Assembly (NCBI GenBank): GCA_030698375.1
Contig: JAUYLL010000125.1
Span: 1 to 64,000, forward strand
Direction: 5' to 3'
Source of the DNA: Nocardioides sp.
GTDB lineage: Bacteria > Actinomycetota > Actinomycetes > Propionibacteriales > Nocardioidaceae
DNA: 64,000 nt
Shown here in pieces: positions 12,620 through 34,002 of this stretch; within the stretch, counting starts at the first letter, position 1; every line of letters starts with the position of its first letter. The position numbers and the translations under genes are program-made. Under the pieces are notes generated by a model. The model searched no databases. It was not told the origin of the DNA and saw only the letters and a program-made list of their open reading frames with translations.

Positions 12620-13444
12620 CCGCTGCGTCGAGCGGTCGAACTTCACGATGACCACCTCGCCACGGGCGTAGACGCGGGCGTCGGCAGCCGCTGAGTCCCG
12701 GATCTCCGAGGCGATCGTGACCGACGCGCCCCCGACCCGCGCGATGCGTGAGGTGACCAGGTAGGGCGTCGTCCGGAACAGCACCGGGTGCAGGTAGTCG
12801 ACGTCCGTCCCGGCGACGACGACCCACAACGCCTCGTCGGTGCCCTGACCCAGGTCGCGGATGCACGCGATCCGCGCCTCCTGCAGGTACTCGAAGTACT
12901 TGACGTTGTTGACGTGCCCGTAGGCGTCGACGTCGGACCACCGCACCCGAAGGTCGTAGTCGAGCGGGGTGCCGTCCGTCAGCGGGGCGCAGCGGCGCAC
13001 CCCGTCCGGGCGGAGCGCCGGCGTGGTCGGGTCCAGGAAGGTCGCGAGCACCTCCCGCTCCCGCGGGGCCAGGCGTCGTGGCCGCTCCTCCGCGAAGACG
13101 TACGGCGTGAGCACCGACCGGGCCCGCAGGTAGACCGTCCGGCTGCCGTCGGCGGCCTCGTCGAAGACCTCGTAGGCCATGGTGAAGGTCGCGGCCCGCA
13201 CGTCGGTCACCCACGTCTCGATCGAGACCGGCTCCTCGCGGAAGACCAGGGGGTGGACGTAGTCGACCTCGTGGCGCACCACCACGACACCCTCTCCGAG
13301 CTCCTCTCCCCCGCGCACCGGCGCGTGGTGGACGAGCATGTCGATCCGCGCCTCCTGCAGGTAGTCGACGTAGGTGACGTTGTTGACGTGGGCGAGCAGG
13401 TCCATATCGGCCCAGCGCAGCGGGCAGCGGTAGAGGTGACGCAC
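12566..13444 (-). CDS. Double hotdog acyl-CoA thioesterase
   Basis: Two copies of the RWxDxDxxxHVNNVxYxxYLQEARI motif; 54-nt convergent overlap with the globin gene. Confidence 0.88.
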   Translation of the reverse strand: MRHLYRCPLRWADMDLLAHVNNVTYVDYLQEARIDMLVHHAPVRGGEELGEGVVVVRHEVDYVHPLVFREEPVSIETWVTDVRAATFTMAYEVFDEAADGSRTVYLRARSVLTPYVFAEERPRRLAPREREVLATFLDPTTPALRPDGVRRCAPLTDGTPLDYDLRVRWSDVDAYGHVNNVKYFEYLQEARIACIRDLGQGTDEALWVVVAGTDVDYLHPVLFRTTPYLVTSRIARVGGASVTIASEIRDSAAADARVYARGEVVIVKFDRSTQRSAPLSEAQRARLVALRG

Positions 13445-16028: not shown

Positions 16029-17711
16029 TCAGTCGCGGGTGAGCCGCCGGTGGGTCACGCGGTGCGGACGAGCGGCGTCCGGCCCGAGCCGCTCGATCTT
16101 GTTCTCCTCGTACGCCGCGAAGTTCCCCTCGAACCAGAACCAGCGCGCAGGGTCCTCGTCGGTCCCCTCCCAGGCCAGGATGTGGGTCGCGACGCGGTCG
16201 AGGAACCAGCGGTCGTGGGAGGTCACGACGGCGCAGCCGGGGAACTCCAGCAGCGCGTCCTCGAGCGCGGACAGCGTCTCGACGTCCAGGTCGTTGGTCG
16301 GCTCGTCGAGCAGCAGCAGGTTGCCGCCCATCTTCAGCGTGAGCGCGAGGTTGAGCCGGTTGCGCTCACCACCCGAGAGCACCCCTGCCTTCTTCTGCTG
16401 GTCGGGACCCTTGAACCCGAACGACGCGACGTAGGCGCGCGAGTTCATCTCGAAGTTGGCGACCTTGATGTGGTCGAGGCCGTCGGAGACGACCTCCCAC
16501 ACGTTCTTCTGGCCGTCGAGCCCGCCCCGGCTCTGGTCGACGTAGGAGAGCTTCACGGTCTGTCCGACCTTGAGCTCGCCCTCGTCGGGCTGCTCCTGCC
16601 CCGTGATCATCCGGAACAGCGTGGTCTTGCCGACGCCGTTGGGACCGATCACGCCGACGATGCCGGCGCGCGGCAGGGAGAAGGAGAGGTCGTGCATGAG
16701 GGTGCGGCCCTCGAAGCCCTTGCCGAGGTCCGCGGCCTCGAGCACCACGTCGCCCAGCCGCGGGCCCGCGGGGATGTTGATGTCGGCGGTGTCGATCTTG
16801 CGCATCCGGTCGGCCTCGGCGGCCATCTCCTCGTACCGCGCCAGCCGGGACTTGCTCTTGGTCTGCCGGGCCTTGGCGTTGGACCGGACCCACTCGAGCT
16901 CGCGCTCGAGCATCTTGGCCCGCTTGGCGTCCTTCTGGCCCTCGATCTTGAGCCGGTCCTTCTTCGTCTCGAGGTACGTCGAGTAGTTGCCCTCGTAGCC
17001 GTGGATCTGACCGCGGTCGACCTCGGCGATCCACTCGGCGACGTTGTCGAGGAAGTACCGGTCGTGGGTGATCGCGAGGACCGCGCCGGGGTAGCTCTTC
17101 AGGTGGCCCTCGAGCCACTGCACCGACTCGGCGTCCAGGTGGTTGGTGGGCTCGTCGAGGAGCAGCAGGTCGGGCTGCTGCAGGAGCAGCTTGCACAGCG
17201 CGACGCGGCGGCGCTCACCGCCGGAGAGGTGGTCGACCAGGGTGTCGGCCGGCGGGCAGCGCAGTGCATCCATCGCCTGGTCCAGGCGGCTGTCGAGGTC
17301 CCAGGCGTTCGCGTGGTCCAGGTCGGTCTGCAGGTCGCCCATCTCAGCGAGCAGCGCGTCGAAGTCGGCGTCCGGGTCGGCCATCTGCTCGGAGATCGCG
17401 TTGTAGCGGTCGAGCTTGCCCTTGATCTCGCCGACCGCCTCCTCGACGTTCTCCAGCACCGTCGTGCCCTCGGTGAGCGGGGGCTCCTGCTGGAGCATCC
17501 CGACCGAAGCGCCGGGGTCGAGGATCGCGTCGCCGTTCGAGGCGTGGTCCAGGCCGGCCATGATGCGCAGCAGCGTCGACTTCCCGGCACCGTTGGGGCC
17601 GACGACTCCGATCTTGACGCCGTGCAGGAACGACAGCGTGACGTTGTCGAGGACGACCTTCTCCCCGTGGGCCTTGCGGACGTTGCGCAACGTGAACACG
17701 TACTCAGCCAT
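16029..17711 (-). CDS. ettA: Energy-dependent translational throttle protein EttA (ABC-F)
   Basis: Two ABC domains, LLDEPTNHLDAESVQWLE / LLLDEPTNDLDVETL, P-site arm region, C-terminal EENKIERLGPDA. Confidence 0.95.
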   Translation of the reverse strand: MAEYVFTLRNVRKAHGEKVVLDNVTLSFLHGVKIGVVGPNGAGKSTLLRIMAGLDHASNGDAILDPGASVGMLQQEPPLTEGTTVLENVEEAVGEIKGKLDRYNAISEQMADPDADFDALLAEMGDLQTDLDHANAWDLDSRLDQAMDALRCPPADTLVDHLSGGERRRVALCKLLLQQPDLLLLDEPTNHLDAESVQWLEGHLKSYPGAVLAITHDRYFLDNVAEWIAEVDRGQIHGYEGNYSTYLETKKDRLKIEGQKDAKRAKMLERELEWVRSNAKARQTKSKSRLARYEEMAAEADRMRKIDTADINIPAGPRLGDVVLEAADLGKGFEGRTLMHDLSFSLPRAGIVGVIGPNGVGKTTLFRMITGQEQPDEGELKVGQTVKLSYVDQSRGGLDGQKNVWEVVSDGLDHIKVANFEMNSRAYVASFGFKGPDQQKKAGVLSGGERNRLNLALTLKMGGNLLLLDEPTNDLDVETLSALEDALLEFPGCAVVTSHDRWFLDRVATHILAWEGTDEDPARWFWFEGNFAAYEENKIERLGPDAARPHRVTHRRLTRD

Positions 17712-22983: not shown

Positions 22984-24396
22984 ATGGACGACCAGCAGCG
23001 CGAGGAGCCCCGCACCGAGAGCCACGACCCCGCCGTGCCGGAGGCGTACGCCGCGTTCATGCGCACCGGGTGGGGTGACCGCGAGCTCGACCTCCCTCGC
23101 CACCCGGTCGCGGACCCGGCGGCCGACCGGCGCGGGCGGCTCGCCGACCTCTTCCCGGGCGAGCGGCTGGTGGTTCCCGCCGGCGGCTACAAGGTGCGGG
23201 CCAACGACACCGACTACCGCTTTCGCCCGGAGACGGCGCACACGTACCTGTGCGGCAACCAGACCTCCGACGCGGTGCTCGTCGTCGAGGACGGTGAGTC
23301 CGTGCTCTACGCCCGGCCGCGTTCCTCCCGGGAGACCGACGAGTTCTTCCGCGACCGCCAGTACGGCGAGCTCTGGGCCGGCCGACGCCCCTCCCTCGGC
23401 GAGCTGTCGGACTCCCTGGACGTGGAGTGCCGCCACCTCGACGACCTCGAGGGCGCGCTCGCCGGGCGCGGGAAGACTCGGGTGCTCCGCGGGGTGGACG
23501 GTCGGGTCGACGGGATCGTGGACGCCGACGAGGGTCGCGACGGCGACCTCGCGCGGGTGCTCTCGGAGCTGCGCCTGGTCAAGGACCCGTGGGAGGTCGA
23601 GCAGCTGCAGGAGGCATGCGACATCACCACCCTCGGGTTCGAGGACTGCGTGCGGGAGTGGGACCGCGTGCTGGAGATGGGCGAGCGCTGGATCGAGGGC
23701 ACCTTCTTCCGACGGGCGCGGGCGATGGGCAACGACATCGGCTACGACTCCATCGTGGGCGGCGGGCGGCACGCGACCACGCTGCACTGGATCGATAACT
23801 CCGGCCCGATCGTCCCGGGCGAGCTGGTGCTCCTCGACATGGGCGTGGAGGCCTCGAGCCTCTACACCGCCGACGTCACCCGGACCCTGCCGGTCTCCGG
23901 CACGTTCACCCCGCTCCAGCGCGAGCTCTACGAGCTGGTGCTCACCGCGCAGCAGGCGGGGATCGACGCGGTGCGGCCCGGGGCCCGGTTCCTGGCCGCC
24001 CACGAGGCCGCGATGAGCGTCATCGCCCACGGCCTCGACGACATGGGGCTGCTGCCGGTCCCGGCCGAGGAGGCGCTCTCCCCCGACTCCAAGGTCTACG
24101 CCCGCTGGACCCTGCACGGCACCAGCCACATGCTCGGGATGGACGTGCACGACTGCGCGCGGTCGGCGCCCGAGAGCTACCCCCGCGGCGACCTCGCCGA
24201 GGGCATGGTGCTCACCGTCGAGCCGGGGCTGTACTTCCAGGAGGACGACCTGCTGGTCCCCGAGGAGCTGCGCGGGATCGGGATCAGGATCGAGGACGAC
24301 GTCCTGGTGACCGCGGACGGCGCGCGCAACCTCTCCGCGGCGCTGCCCAGGGACGCCGGCGCCGTCGAGGAGTGGATGGCGGCACTGAGAGGCTGA
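22984..24396 (+). CDS. Aminopeptidase P family (M24B) Xaa-Pro peptidase
   Basis: AMP_N domain; GGRHATTLHW, LLDMGVEASSLYTADVTRTLPVSG, HGTSHMLGMDVHD, VEPGLYF. Confidence 0.94.
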   Translation: MDDQQREEPRTESHDPAVPEAYAAFMRTGWGDRELDLPRHPVADPAADRRGRLADLFPGERLVVPAGGYKVRANDTDYRFRPETAHTYLCGNQTSDAVLVVEDGESVLYARPRSSRETDEFFRDRQYGELWAGRRPSLGELSDSLDVECRHLDDLEGALAGRGKTRVLRGVDGRVDGIVDADEGRDGDLARVLSELRLVKDPWEVEQLQEACDITTLGFEDCVREWDRVLEMGERWIEGTFFRRARAMGNDIGYDSIVGGGRHATTLHWIDNSGPIVPGELVLLDMGVEASSLYTADVTRTLPVSGTFTPLQRELYELVLTAQQAGIDAVRPGARFLAAHEAAMSVIAHGLDDMGLLPVPAEEALSPDSKVYARWTLHGTSHMLGMDVHDCARSAPESYPRGDLAEGMVLTVEPGLYFQEDDLLVPEELRGIGIRIEDDVLVTADGARNLSAALPRDAGAVEEWMAALRG

Positions 24397-27424: not shown

Positions 27425-27500
27425 GCCCTCGTAGCTCAGTGGACAGAGCAGCGGCCTTCTAATCCGACGGTCCCAGGTTCGAATCCTGGCGGGGGCACCA
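27425..27500 (+). tRNA. tRNA-Arg (anticodon TCT), CCA encoded
   Basis: Cloverleaf: acceptor GCCCTCG/CGGGGGC, T-arm CCAGG-TTCGAAT-CCTGG, anticodon loop CTTCTAA; anticodon stem has mismatches. Confidence 0.9.
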
Positions 27501-27553: not shown

Positions 27554-30529
27554 TCAGTCCGCGCAGGGCCCCACGTCGCCGCCGGGGAAGCACACGTAGA
27601 CCGGCGCACTCGTCGACCGGGCCCCGCTGGCGTCGGTGACGGTCGCGCGCAGCCGGACGATCCCCCGCCCGGGAGCGTGGACGTCGTCCACGGCCAGCGT
27701 CCCGGACAACCGCCCGGAGATCCGCGAGGACGGGTGGGAGTGGTAGCTGCTCCCCGCGTAGTGCAGGAAGTCCACGGCGAGCTCGACGTCCTCGGTCAGG
27801 GCCTGCTGGGTGTCACCGTCCGGGTCGCTCACCACGACGCGCCAGTCGACAGTGCCGTCACTCGCGACCACCCCGTTCGCCGGAGCCTCGAGCCGGATGC
27901 TCGCGGCCCCGCCGACCCGGGACCAGGTGATGTCGGCGAAGGCGCGCTCGGCGTCACCGTGGACCATCTCGGCGCGGACGACGTGCTGGCCGCGGCCGAG
28001 CGTGACGTCGTGCTGCCGCGTCTCGGCGGGCCAGAACGCGTTGGCGTAGAAGTCGTGCACGACCTTGTCGTCGACCCACAGGCGGACCCACTCGTCACCC
28101 TGCACCACGAAGCGGTAGGTCCCCTCCTCGAGATCGAGGCGGCCACGCCACGCGGCCCCGAACCGGTCGCCGGGGTGATCACGGTCGTCGACGCCGTCGC
28201 CGACCCACGGTGACCCCGTCGTGTCCAGGTGGATGCGGGACTCGCAGGTGGCCTCCCCCATGACCTCCGACGGCAGCTGCGCGGCGGCGTACGGGAAGAG
28301 CCACTTCCACTCGTTGTCCGCGAACTCCCGGTCGAAGACGGAGTCCGGGCCGTCGAGGTCGTGGAAGGTACGACGGAAGGTGCCGACCGGGCAGGTCTCC
28401 GCGAGCGCCTCGCCAGTCCACCGGATCCGCTGCAGCGCACCCCCCATGATGGAGACCGACCAGACGAGCCCGTCGGGTCCGGTGAAGAACTTCACCGGAC
28501 CCCCGGCGGCCGATGCGTCGGCCAGGAGCGCGAGACCGGAGACCCTCCCGTCGGCGGTCATCTCGGCGGTGCGGATGAAGTTCTGCGCGTAGTCGCCGAA
28601 CACGTAGCGACCGCGCCACGGCTGCGGGTAGGCCTCCGAGGTCAGGAACACACCCCCGGAGACCGACCCCCCGCCCGTGGCGTGCGGGTAGGCGTGCGCC
28701 GGAGGTATCGCGACGCCCGGCAGGCGCACGTCGGCGCAGCCGTGCCAGGGGCTGGAGGGGTCGGTGACGTCACCCAACGACGTCTCCTGCTTGCCCTCCA
28801 GGCACGGCCACCCGAAGTTCGGGACCCCGGTGTGCGGCTCGTCGAGCAGGTGGACGTCGATCTCCTCCGCGTCCCCCTCGCCTACGTCCCCGATGACCAG
28901 GCGTCCTTCGTGCACCGTGAACCGGAAGGGGTTGCGCAGACCGAGCGCGAGCACGCGGGAGGCATTGCTCGACCCGTCCCCGGTGTAGAGCGGGTTGCCC
29001 GGGACGCCCCGTCCGGTGGTCGCGTCGATCCGCAGCACCTTGCCCGCAAGCACGTCCGGGTCCTGCGCGCGCCAGGCCTCGTGACGACCGAGCAGTCCGT
29101 CGTTGGTCAGGTAGATCGCCCCGTCACCGATCCCCACCAGCAGTCGGCCCTCGTCGTCGAAGACCAGGTCGCCGATGGTGTGCGCCTCCCCGAGCAGCGG
29201 GACGCAGTCGTCGGTGCGGATGTCTCCCGCGCTCGAGCATGCGGGGCCGCTCACCGAGCCGAGCACCACGTGCCGCGACCCCGGGTCCAGGACCTCACCG
29301 TCCCAGGTGAACCGCGCGACCTGCTGGCTGCGCTCCTGCCCGATCGCGTCGTCGCGCACGTAGCTGAGGTAGACGAAACCGTTCGAGGCGACATCGGGGT
29401 CGATGGCGATCCCGATGAGACCGGCGTCCCCACCGTCGTGGACCTCGTCACGCAGGTCGAGCACCTTCCGCGGCGGGGACCAGCCGGTCTCCTCGGCCGG
29501 CTCCACCACCTTGACCAGACCCGACTTCTCGGTGACGAGGACGGCACCGGACGGCAGCGACCCGGCACTCGTGGGGAGGAACAACCCGGACTGGACCGTC
29601 TCGAGGGCGAAGCCCTCGGCCACTCCTGAGTCCATCCCGACCGGTGCCGCTCCGGTCTCGTACGTCGCCGCGTCGCTCAGCACGCTCTCGACCGGGCCGA
29701 CCGCGCGGGCCACCACGTCGTGGACGCCGATCCGCGACGACCACGTGGCCCGCCACGGGGGGCTGGTTTCCTCGGCGACCAGCACACCGTCGGCGAAGAA
29801 CCGGACCCTCTGGACCGCCCCGGTGGTCGTGGCCGCGGCGTGCACCTGGGCCCCGTCGGTGACCGCCTGCACGGCGACCGTCGGCGGATGGAGGACCGCC
29901 GAGCCGGTCGCCGGGGCACCCTGGTGCGGCCCGAGGCGGACCCGCAGCGACGCGCCGCGCGCCACCGGGACCCCCGCGACGGGCACGACGCGGGACCGCC
30001 CTGCGCGGACGGTCCTCAGCGTGTGCCACGACCGGTCCGCGGTCCGCTGCTGCACGTGCACCGCCCGGCCCCGGCGTACGTGGGAGAGGACCGCCCGCAC
30101 GTCGACGCCGCCCGCCGCGGCCCGGCTCGCGGTGAAGGAGACCGTCTGTGGTGCGGTGGCGTTCACCCGGCGTACCCGCGAGACCGCGCGCGGGTGGCGG
30201 CGCTCGCCGACCCGGTGGGCGGGTGCCACCACGCGCAGCCGTGGGCGCGGCTGCCGCACGCGGTAGTCGAACGTCGCCACACCCGTGCGCTTGGTCCGGG
30301 AGCGCGCGACCGTGGCCCACCCCGTGGGGGCGCGCTGCTGCAGCCGCACCGGCCGCACCCCACGAGGGAGCCGGACCCGCACGGTGACCCGCTCGCCGAG
30401 GATCGGCGGAGCCGGGGCGACGGTCGGGATCGGCCGCGGCGCTGCAGCCGCGGGCTCCCCGGGTACGGCGACCGCAGCGGTCAGGCAGGTGGCCAGCGCG
30501 ACCAGGGTCGCTGCGGCTCGGCGTAGCAC
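27554..30529 (-). CDS. Secreted PQQ-type glucose/sorbosone dehydrogenase-like beta-propeller with PA14 domain
   Basis: Signal peptide; GLIGIAIDPDVASNGFVYLSYV, LALGLRNPFRFTVHEGRLVIGDVGEGDAEEIDV, C-terminal PA14-like YRFVVQGDEWVRLWVDDKVV. Confidence 0.87.
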   Translation of the reverse strand: MLRRAAATLVALATCLTAAVAVPGEPAAAAPRPIPTVAPAPPILGERVTVRVRLPRGVRPVRLQQRAPTGWATVARSRTKRTGVATFDYRVRQPRPRLRVVAPAHRVGERRHPRAVSRVRRVNATAPQTVSFTASRAAAGGVDVRAVLSHVRRGRAVHVQQRTADRSWHTLRTVRAGRSRVVPVAGVPVARGASLRVRLGPHQGAPATGSAVLHPPTVAVQAVTDGAQVHAAATTTGAVQRVRFFADGVLVAEETSPPWRATWSSRIGVHDVVARAVGPVESVLSDAATYETGAAPVGMDSGVAEGFALETVQSGLFLPTSAGSLPSGAVLVTEKSGLVKVVEPAEETGWSPPRKVLDLRDEVHDGGDAGLIGIAIDPDVASNGFVYLSYVRDDAIGQERSQQVARFTWDGEVLDPGSRHVVLGSVSGPACSSAGDIRTDDCVPLLGEAHTIGDLVFDDEGRLLVGIGDGAIYLTNDGLLGRHEAWRAQDPDVLAGKVLRIDATTGRGVPGNPLYTGDGSSNASRVLALGLRNPFRFTVHEGRLVIGDVGEGDAEEIDVHLLDEPHTGVPNFGWPCLEGKQETSLGDVTDPSSPWHGCADVRLPGVAIPPAHAYPHATGGGSVSGGVFLTSEAYPQPWRGRYVFGDYAQNFIRTAEMTADGRVSGLALLADASAAGGPVKFFTGPDGLVWSVSIMGGALQRIRWTGEALAETCPVGTFRRTFHDLDGPDSVFDREFADNEWKWLFPYAAAQLPSEVMGEATCESRIHLDTTGSPWVGDGVDDRDHPGDRFGAAWRGRLDLEEGTYRFVVQGDEWVRLWVDDKVVHDFYANAFWPAETRQHDVTLGRGQHVVRAEMVHGDAERAFADITWSRVGGAASIRLEAPANGVVASDGTVDWRVVVSDPDGDTQQALTEDVELAVDFLHYAGSSYHSHPSSRISGRLSGTLAVDDVHAPGRGIVRLRATVTDASGARSTSAPVYVCFPGGDVGPCAD

Positions 30530-30582
30530 CGCGTCAGCGTAGGCGCGCGGCGCCCGCTTTGATCACGTTTCGGCTGAACCCG

Positions 30583-30627
30583 TCGATCACCAGGGACTGG
30601 GCTGGTAGTCATCGACGAACCGGCCGT
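30583..30627. repeat. Left copy of 45-bp imperfect direct repeat (vestigial SDR 3' end, encodes minus-strand GRFVDDYQPSPW*)
   Basis: 39/45 identities to 31598-31642. Confidence 0.85.
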
Positions 30628-30661
30628 CGTCGGGTTCGCGGCGGCACCTAGGGTCGTCCCC

Positions 30662-31567
30662 ATGCCGGCCGAGCCCTCCCGCCGTCGACGACCGCACCGC
30701 GCCCTCGGTCTGGCCCTCGTCACGGCGCTCGTCGCCGTCGCCGCCTGGTCGCACGACCTCGCGCCGTCGGCGGCCATCGCGGACGTCGAGTCCGACGAGC
30801 TGCACGTGATGTCGTTCAACCTGCGCCACGCCACGGCGCCCGGTCCCTCCTGGCGCGTCCGCCGCCCCCTCGTGCGCGCCCTGATCCACCAGGAGGAGCC
30901 TCACCTCGTCGGGACCCAGGAGGGTCAGCCGGAGCAGCTCGCGGAGATCGACGAGGACCTCGGACGGCGCTACGGCTCGCTGCGGCGCGGCAAGCACGCC
31001 CAGGAGCCGCAGTTCTTCTTCGACCGGCGGCGACTCAGGCCCCTGGAGACGGGGCACTACGCCCTCTCGGACGCGCCCGACGAGGTCGGCTCGCGGGGGT
31101 GGGGCGGATGCTGCGCCCGCAGCGTGTTCTGGGTGCGCTTCCGCGACGAGGTGACCTCGCAGCAGTTCTACGCGGTGAACACCCACCTCGAGGCGTTCTC
31201 CGCTAGGGCACGCAGGAAGTCGGCCGCGCTCATCCTCGAGCGGATGCAGGCCTTCGACTCGACCCTGCCCGTGGTGCTGACCGGCGACTTCAACGAACCG
31301 GCGGGCCAGGGTCGCCCCGTCCACCGGCAGCTCGTCGGCTCCGGCCGGTTCGTCGACACGTGGGAGCAGGCCGCGCGGCGCAGCAAGCTGGTCGGGACCT
31401 TCCACAAGTTCGGTCGCCGGAAGCGGGAGGGCGGCCGCATCGACTGGGTGCTCACCTCCCCCGGGGTCACCACCCGCCGCGCCGCGATCAACACCTTCGC
31501 GGTGGGCGGCCGCTACCCCAGCGACCACTTCCCGGTGCAGGCGGTCATCCGGTTCCCGACTCCCTGA
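30662..31567 (+). CDS. Endonuclease/exonuclease/phosphatase (EEP) family protein, probably exported
   Basis: LHVMSFNLRH, VGTQEG, YAVNTHLEA, LTGDFNEPAG, SDHFPVQAVI. Confidence 0.9.
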   Translation: MPAEPSRRRRPHRALGLALVTALVAVAAWSHDLAPSAAIADVESDELHVMSFNLRHATAPGPSWRVRRPLVRALIHQEEPHLVGTQEGQPEQLAEIDEDLGRRYGSLRRGKHAQEPQFFFDRRRLRPLETGHYALSDAPDEVGSRGWGGCCARSVFWVRFRDEVTSQQFYAVNTHLEAFSARARRKSAALILERMQAFDSTLPVVLTGDFNEPAGQGRPVHRQLVGSGRFVDTWEQAARRSKLVGTFHKFGRRKREGGRIDWVLTSPGVTTRRAAINTFAVGGRYPSDHFPVQAVIRFPTP

Positions 31568-31597
31568 GCCGGACCGACCGCACCGGGCCGGGACCGG

Positions 31598-31642
31598 TCG
31601 ATCACCAGGGGCTGGGCTGATAGTCCTTGACGAAGCAGCCGT
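31598..31642. repeat. Right copy of 45-bp imperfect direct repeat (actual 3' end of the SDR gene)
   Basis: 39/45 identities to 30583-30627. Confidence 0.85.
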
Positions 31643-33116
31643 GCAGGTCCTCGCCGGCCTCGCCCCGCACGATCGGGTCGTAGACCCGGGCCGCACCGTC
31701 GACGAGGTCCAGCGGCGCGTGCCAGCCCTCGGCGGCGATCCGCAGCTTCTCGTGGTGGGGACGTACGTCGGAGATCCAGCCGGTGTCGACCGCGGTCATG
31801 AGGATCCGGTCGGTCTCGAACATCTCGCCGGCGCTGGTGCGGGTCATCATGTTCAGCGCCGCCTTCGCCATGTTCGTGTGCGGGTGCCCGGGGCCCTTGT
31901 AGCGGCGGGAGAACTGGCCCTCCATCGCGGACACGTTCACGACGTACGCCCGCCGCGCGCCCGCCGCGACCGCGGCCCGCATCGCCGGTCGCAGCCGCGA
32001 GACCAGCAGGAACGGGGCGATCGAGTTGCACAGCTGCACCTCGAGAAGCTCCAGCGGGTCGACCTCGTCGACGACCTGGGTCCAGGAGTTGTTGGCCTGC
32101 ACGTCCGGCAGCAGGCCCCCGGCGTCGACGGCCGTGCCTGCGCGGTGCGCGTCGAGGCTGGCGCTCCCGGCCTTCAGCGCCAGGGCGCTGATGGTCGCGG
32201 CGCTGTGGACCGCCAGCGCGTGCTCGGGCGACTCGCCCTCGTGGCGGGCGGCGGCATGGGACTGGAGGGTGCCCATGATGGCGGCGGGGTGGGCCTCGGA
32301 GATCTGGTCGAAGGCCACCATCTCCGGCAGCGCCTGGTCGGTCGGCAACGGCACGGACTCGCCCTCGACGAGCTGGCTGTAGGCCCCGGGCGTACGGCGG
32401 ACCGTCTGGCACGCGTTGTTCACCAGGATGTCGAGGGCTCCTGCGGCCGCCACGTCGTCGGCGAGCGCGATCACCTGGGTGGGGTCGCGCAGGTCGATGC
32501 CGACCACCTTGAGCCGGTGCAGCCAGTCGGCGCTGTCCTCGGCCGCGGCGAACCGGCGGACAGCGTCCTTGGGGAACCGCGTAGTGATCGTCAGGTGCGC
32601 ACCGTCGCGCAGCAGCATCAGCGCGATGTACATCCCGATCTTGGCGCGCCCGCCCGTGAGCAGCGCCCGCTTGCCGGACAGGTCGGTGCGCTGACCCCGC
32701 TTGGCATGCGACATCGCGGCACACGTCGGGCACAACCAGTGGTAGAACGCATCGACCAGCGTGAAGTCCTCCTTGCAGATGTAGCACCCACGAGCAGTGA
32801 TGAGCTCCCCGGCGAAGGCGCCCTGCGCGGTGGAGACCAGCGGGATGCCGGCCGTCTCGTCGTCGATCCGCAGCGCCGAGCCGGTGGCGGTGCTCTCGAT
32901 GATCGCCTGGTCGTGGCTCTGGCGGCCCAGGCGGATCTCGGCCCGCCGGGACTTCTTGATCAGCTTGTACATCGACGACGCCGCACGCTTCATCGTCGTG
33001 ACGTCCTCGTGGTCCGACGGGAGCGCCGCGACCTCACGCAGGACCTTGAGGGCCACCGCGAGCTCGTCGGGGTCGATCCGCGCGGGCGGGCCATCGGGGA
33101 AAGGCGTCCTGGTCAC
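31602..33116 (-). CDS. Long SDR-family oxidoreductase with N-terminal double-CxxC zinc-knuckle insertion
   Basis: CYICKEDFTLVDAFYHWLCPTCAAMSH followed by Rossmann LSGKRALLTGGRAKIGMYIAL, DILVNNACQT; C-term CFVKDYQPSPW. Confidence 0.85.
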   Translation of the reverse strand: MTRTPFPDGPPARIDPDELAVALKVLREVAALPSDHEDVTTMKRAASSMYKLIKKSRRAEIRLGRQSHDQAIIESTATGSALRIDDETAGIPLVSTAQGAFAGELITARGCYICKEDFTLVDAFYHWLCPTCAAMSHAKRGQRTDLSGKRALLTGGRAKIGMYIALMLLRDGAHLTITTRFPKDAVRRFAAAEDSADWLHRLKVVGIDLRDPTQVIALADDVAAAGALDILVNNACQTVRRTPGAYSQLVEGESVPLPTDQALPEMVAFDQISEAHPAAIMGTLQSHAAARHEGESPEHALAVHSAATISALALKAGSASLDAHRAGTAVDAGGLLPDVQANNSWTQVVDEVDPLELLEVQLCNSIAPFLLVSRLRPAMRAAVAAGARRAYVVNVSAMEGQFSRRYKGPGHPHTNMAKAALNMMTRTSAGEMFETDRILMTAVDTGWISDVRPHHEKLRIAAEGWHAPLDLVDGAARVYDPIVRGEAGEDLHGCFVKDYQPSPW

Positions 33117-33150
33117 CGGGAGATGGTAGGTCGCGCGGGGCCGCCGACCC

Positions 33151-34002
33151 TCATCCCCACAGGTCGCGGACCCGGTCCAGCACCCGCACCGCCTGGTCCC
33201 GGCCGGCGCGCGCCGACGCAGCACGGGCCGCGGGGTCGAGCACGTTGCGGCCGATCGCCGCCCGGGACGCCTCGTCGGGGGCGAGCACCACGTGCGGTAC
33301 GTCGCCCAGCAGCTGCCCGGCGGGCCTCATCGGTCCGACGCCGCGGTCGATGGGAGCCAGCACCAGCACCCGGGCGCACTCCCCCACCATCAGGTCGGCG
33401 TGCGTCCCCGACAAGGCACCGCCGTCGACGTGCGGACGGCCCTCGATCGGGACCGGCGGGTAGACGCCGGGCACCGCGCAGCTGGCCGCGACCGCGTCGA
33501 GGAGCGGCACGCCGCTGTCTGCGTCGAGCACCCGGAGCGCACCCGTCGCTGCGTCGACCGCCGTGACGGCGAGGTGCAGCTCGGGCCACTCCAGGGAGGG
33601 CAGCCGGCCGCGGATCGCGGTCAGTCGCGCCTCCAGGGTGGGGGTGCGGCCGGCCTCGGCCCGACGCACCGCGAAGCGGCCGAGCTGCCGCGCCATCGCG
33701 ACCCCGTCCCCGCGCGCCCGCGCCAGGGACGCGACATACCCGAGGAGGACCCGGGGACCGACCGTCGCGGCCTTCTCCCCCGGTCGGGGCACATGCTCGG
33801 CGGCCTGGGTCGCGAAGAGCTCCTCGACGGGCGTGCTGCTGCGCAGCTGCGCGCCCACGACCGAACCGGCCGAGGTGCCGAGCACCCGGTCGGCCTCCCG
33901 GAGGTCGACGCCGGCATCGAGCAGTCCCGCCACCAGCCCGGTCTCCCAGGCGATGCCGGTGATGCCGCCGCCTCCGAGCACGAGTCCTCGTCGTCCGTCC
34001 AC
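33151..34002 (-). CDS. Patatin-like phospholipase
   Basis: GLVLGGGGITGIAWETGLVAGL, GTSAGS, DGGALSGTHADL. Confidence 0.92.
   Translation of the reverse strand: MDGRRGLVLGGGGITGIAWETGLVAGLLDAGVDLREADRVLGTSAGSVVGAQLRSSTPVEELFATQAAEHVPRPGEKAATVGPRVLLGYVASLARARGDGVAMARQLGRFAVRRAEAGRTPTLEARLTAIRGRLPSLEWPELHLAVTAVDAATGALRVLDADSGVPLLDAVAASCAVPGVYPPVPIEGRPHVDGGALSGTHADLMVGECARVLVLAPIDRGVGPMRPAGQLLGDVPHVVLAPDEASRAAIGRNVLDPAARAASARAGRDQAVRVLDRVRDLWG

Follow-up and report, generated by a model that had tools for sequence, protein, structure and literature searches.

A displaced copy of an SDR gene end beside an EEP-family gene: probable scar of an old recombination event

INTRODUCTION

Homology-facilitated illegitimate recombination is an established reaction, known experimentally from three naturally competent species and from E. 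coli conjugation (PMC3240628). Spots of gene turnover without mobile elements, which recombine at flanking core genes, have also been described (PMC5635113). A third relevant class is that of integrative elements at gene 3′ ends, in which the insert is surrounded by direct repeats and the gene end is restored by one of them.

Here we analyze a 64-kb stretch of DNA (hereafter the window, meaning the whole stretch) in which an EEP-family gene lies between two direct copies of the 3′ end of a neighbouring SDR-family gene. The initial annotation had proposed either an insertion that restored a gene end, as in att-type integration, or a recombination scar carrying a foreign SDR allele. We find that an old recombination scar, made in the window lineage within a region of gene turnover, most likely accounts for the copy distant from the SDR gene.

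RESULTS

A direct repeat of the SDR gene end

The repeat is real. The direct repeats of 45 bp given by the initial annotation (30583–30627 and 31598–31642, 39/45 identities) were reproduced in coordinates and match, and a repeat search gave 43 of 50 identical positions without gaps (86% over 50 nt; 30578–30627 versus 31593–31642). Both copies have the same orientation and stand 1,015 nt apart. As described before, the right copy is the true SDR 3′ end and the entire EEP gene falls between the copies (Table 1). That the left copy is not a chance match was likewise upheld: in order-3 Markov shuffles of the region 29500–33224 (n = 150) the best 45-mer match was at most 33 (mean 30.3), versus 39 observed. 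The SDR-tail pair is one of three direct 45-mer pairs with at least 36 matches in the window, and in the 3.46-Mb assembly a core of 33 nt, allowing up to 3 mismatches, matched at these two places only, with no third copy. Further direct 45-mer pairs were seen at 12868 (+474, 41/45) and, inside ORF 16029–17711, at 16275 (+849, 40/45); the latter perhaps corresponds to duplicated ATPase domains.

Table 1. Features of the variable stretch (window positions)
Feature	Position	Strand	Description
tRNA-Arg (TCT)	27425..27500	+	Left-hand landmark of the variable stretch, conserved across the three genus members
GSDH-family (PF07995) protein gene	27554..30529	-	Big_7 and PA14 domains (Pfam); absent from G001 and G002
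Left repeat copy	30578..30627	-	Decayed stub of SDR 3′ end, GRFVDDYQPSPW-stop; GSDH/EEP divergent intergenic region; 43/50 to right copy
EEP-family (Exo_endo_phos) protein gene	30662..31567	+	Pfam PF03372, E=8e-15; N-terminal hydrophobic segment by eye
Right repeat copy	31593..31642	-	True 3′ end of SDR gene plus 9 nt past stop
SDR-family gene	31602..33224	-	N-terminal extension; conserved C-terminal tail ...GCFVKDYQPSPW; Pfam adh_short, residues 185-274; coordinates of longest ORF

The right copy reads GCFVKDYQPSPW-stop and the left copy, located in the 132-nt intergenic region between the GSDH-family and EEP genes, reads GRFVDDYQPSPW-stop. Identity extends beyond the stop codon, with TGATCGAC-GGT in both copies, and these common post-stop bases were absent from every SDR relative listed. 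Simple scans around the copies gave no promoter- or terminator-like sites.

The SDR gene itself is widespread, being present in 219 of the 346 genomes of the bacterial family. Its true start is probably internal to the longest ORF, since most relatives match only from about residue 25–50. The N-terminal extension is long and the SDR Pfam match spans only about 90 residues; the best NCBIfam models listed for the protein all scored far under their cut-offs. No second tail occurred at the 44 SDR loci examined in relatives: the tail matched once at the nucleotide level in 43 and at the protein level only in the remaining one.

Gene turnover between tRNA-Arg and SDR

The genus comparison comprised three genomes, that of the window and those of two relatives, G001 and G002. 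In G002, read on one contig in the window orientation, the order starts with an M24 peptidase gene, whose window homolog is 22984–24396, and continues with a DHFR-like homolog, tRNA-Arg, transposase-like genes, TetR, a small ORF, EEP and SDR; the transposase-like genes stand just downstream of tRNA-Arg, and the one tested belongs to DDE_Tnp_1_4. G001 carries the peptidase gene, a DHFR-like gene (a name assigned by eye), two other genes, tRNA-Arg, TetR, a small ORF and SDR. The window order is peptidase gene, a different TetR, an MMPL gene, tRNA-Arg, GSDH-family gene, stub, EEP and SDR. Gene content between tRNA-Arg and SDR is thus unlike in all three genus members, and a gene-turnover spot is the best explanation of this stretch. 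A duplicated tRNA-Arg 3′ end was considered as an integration mark and rejected: no second copy occurs in the window, where the best other match is 16/22.

The stub was absent from both G001 and G002. The three gene orders put it precisely at the boundary between window-specific DNA and DNA in common with G002: it forms the right edge of the block with the GSDH-family gene and adjoins the EEP region common to G002. The GSDH-family gene is sporadic, as judged by a search with a 401-aa part of its protein. EEP is missing from G001, which has a single SDR tail, and an EEP homolog occupies the same place and orientation beside SDR in G002, where the SDR tail is again single. The repeat is therefore not carried along with EEP.

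This bears directly on site-specific integration of a 1-kb EEP element at the SDR 3′ end, in which the two repeat copies would be attL and attR. Such an event would produce the geometry seen, an insert between direct repeats one of which restores a gene end, and the EEP-free site of G001 agrees with it. It is nevertheless highly unlikely, given that G002 has EEP at this position yet only one tail, that the 44 SDR loci hold no such repeat at the gene end and that EEP loci elsewhere carry no tail. By Pfam, moreover, no recombinase or transposase family was found in EEP, SDR, the GSDH-family gene or 8 further flanking genes of the window. Of the two origins first proposed, the recombination scar is retained, since the left copy is a decayed stub confined to this lineage and lies at a synteny breakpoint, and the att-type EEP cassette is not. 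The initial annotation had expected relatives lacking EEP to show one tail, and had regarded EEP with both tails in all relatives as refuting. G001 provides the EEP-free, single-tail site; G002 corresponds to neither wording and speaks against a cassette.

Divergence of the EEP gene

EEP is sporadic as well, with 11 of 346 family genomes positive at E <= 1e-25, and a scan of genome contigs with EEP returned distant homologs only. The nearest solved relatives of the protein are EEP-family proteins, one of them named mannosyl-6-phosphatase. At 14 EEP loci elsewhere no SDR tail rose above background, the best match being 28/45 in one. Hence the further cassettes with the same tail that the initial annotation had thought worth seeking among relatives appeared neither at these loci nor at the 44 SDR loci.

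The same loci bear on the possibility, also envisaged at the outset, that the left copy is a selected, independently conserved regulatory element of the GSDH/EEP divergent promoter region. Its location in the 132-nt intergenic region would suit such a role. A counterpart upstream of EEP was found neither in G002 nor at the 14 other loci, however, the left copy still reads as a decayed coding tail and a simple scan detected no promoter-like site, which makes a regulatory origin the least credible of the readings considered.

The EEP proteins of the window and G002 are only 46–48% identical although encoded at the same place, and most neighbouring genes reach 65–93%. On this account one may imagine the SDR 3′ end as a recurrent recombination target in the genus, where related EEP genes entered more than once by gene-end-restoring exchange; we consider this very doubtful. 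The two EEPs were sister in two trees (support 98/95 and 97/90), and one alternative pairing was not rejected (AU p = 0.09). A single ancestral EEP gene evolving fast is the simplest account, and on these trees the two genes may instead be xenologous.

Age and source of the stub

Judged against G001 and G002, the stub has about 5 changes of its own in 50 nt and the right copy about 1. The stub changes K to D, C to R and AGC to AGT hit positions conserved in the SDRs of both relatives, a pattern that fits release from constraint. Fourfold sites of SDR differ by 41–45% between the window and G001 or G002, and by 32% between the latter two. Set against this divergence, the few stub changes suggest that the copying event came after the split from G001 and G002, a rough estimate that assumes unconstrained decay and uses small numbers.

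Because the post-stop bases shared by the copies are unlike those of any relative listed, the copy appears to have come from the window lineage or a very near relative. The tail Q codon common to both copies is not diagnostic, as the residue varies between Q, E, K and A in relatives. An SDR allele from a distant foreign donor, as suggested in the initial annotation, is disfavoured by the same shared post-stop bases, and this part of the earlier proposal is weakened.

Proposed joining of two locus versions

As a single event, the stub is most simply explained if two versions of the locus were joined, one crossover being homologous and the other illegitimate; we give this account a probability of about 0.5. 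After separation of the window lineage from G001 and G002, a version with a GSDH-family gene directly after SDR would have met another with EEP after SDR. The homologous crossover would have fallen in SDR or in the left flank, and the illegitimate one would have connected the final ~15 codons of SDR in one version to a point ~35 nt upstream of EEP in the second. Both accessory genes would then have come together at one locus, along with a useless remnant of the SDR tail that would since have decayed. We infer the two parental versions, the transfer direction and the pairing of a homologous with an illegitimate joint. ComEC-family genes were found in the window genome, G001 and G002, which permits DNA uptake in all three.

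Against the joining of two versions, GSDH directly downstream of SDR was seen in no genome examined, so that one proposed parent is unseen, and the shared post-stop bases require very close parents, or that one of them was the window lineage itself. A coarse 40-codon identity profile of SDR, compared without a near parent, had no clear mosaic switch.

The data are explained almost equally well by a short templated insertion. Here a polymerase repairing a break upstream of EEP would have copied ~50 nt from the 3′ end of SDR nearby into the joint, by template switching or end-joining filler synthesis, possibly at the arrival of the GSDH gene. The post-stop bases found in both copies and in no relative listed, the direct orientation at 1,015 nt and the shortness and arbitrary ends of the copied piece all favour such local copying, for which no unseen parental version has to be assumed. 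Ku occurs in both G001 and G002; in the assembly of the window, which is only 87% complete, it was not found. The exact gene end within the copy is left unexplained. We regard this route as possible, if on the unlikely side.

Tandem duplication of the SDR tail together with EEP, followed by loss of the distal EEP, would also yield the observed order, leaving one extra tail whose right edge abuts the EEP upstream region. It is improbable: two events are required, no EEP remnant was seen left of the left copy and the repeat ends a few bases beyond the stop codon.

DISCUSSION

The stub is a readable, roughly datable fossil of the way in which accessory genes next to a conserved gene can change where no mobile element is evident. 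It also calls for caution: direct repeats around a gene need not denote a mobile cassette, and comparison with relatives removes that reading here.

As in integrative elements at gene 3′ ends, direct repeats surround the putative insert and one copy would restore the gene end. In contrast to such elements, no integrase was found, the repeat occurs in one lineage only and EEP of G002 stands without it. Two att copies would be expected at an occupied site and one at an empty site; the empty site of G001 and the occupied site of G002 have one each.

The locus differs from the integrase-free turnover hotspots (PMC5635113) in that the G002 version has a transposase gene and the genus is represented by three genomes. 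It resembles them in having differing accessory genes between the same conserved neighbours, with no recombinase family among the window genes scanned.

With respect to homology-facilitated illegitimate recombination as studied experimentally, our case is proposed from sequence, with a putative donor, putative crossover points and presumed DNA uptake. The outcome would be of the same kind: a join made through homology on one side and illegitimately on the other would leave a displaced gene-end stub, and the segment 30578–30627 is such a stub at a synteny breakpoint. Accordingly, the SDR-tail stub is a fairly ordinary product of a known kind of event.
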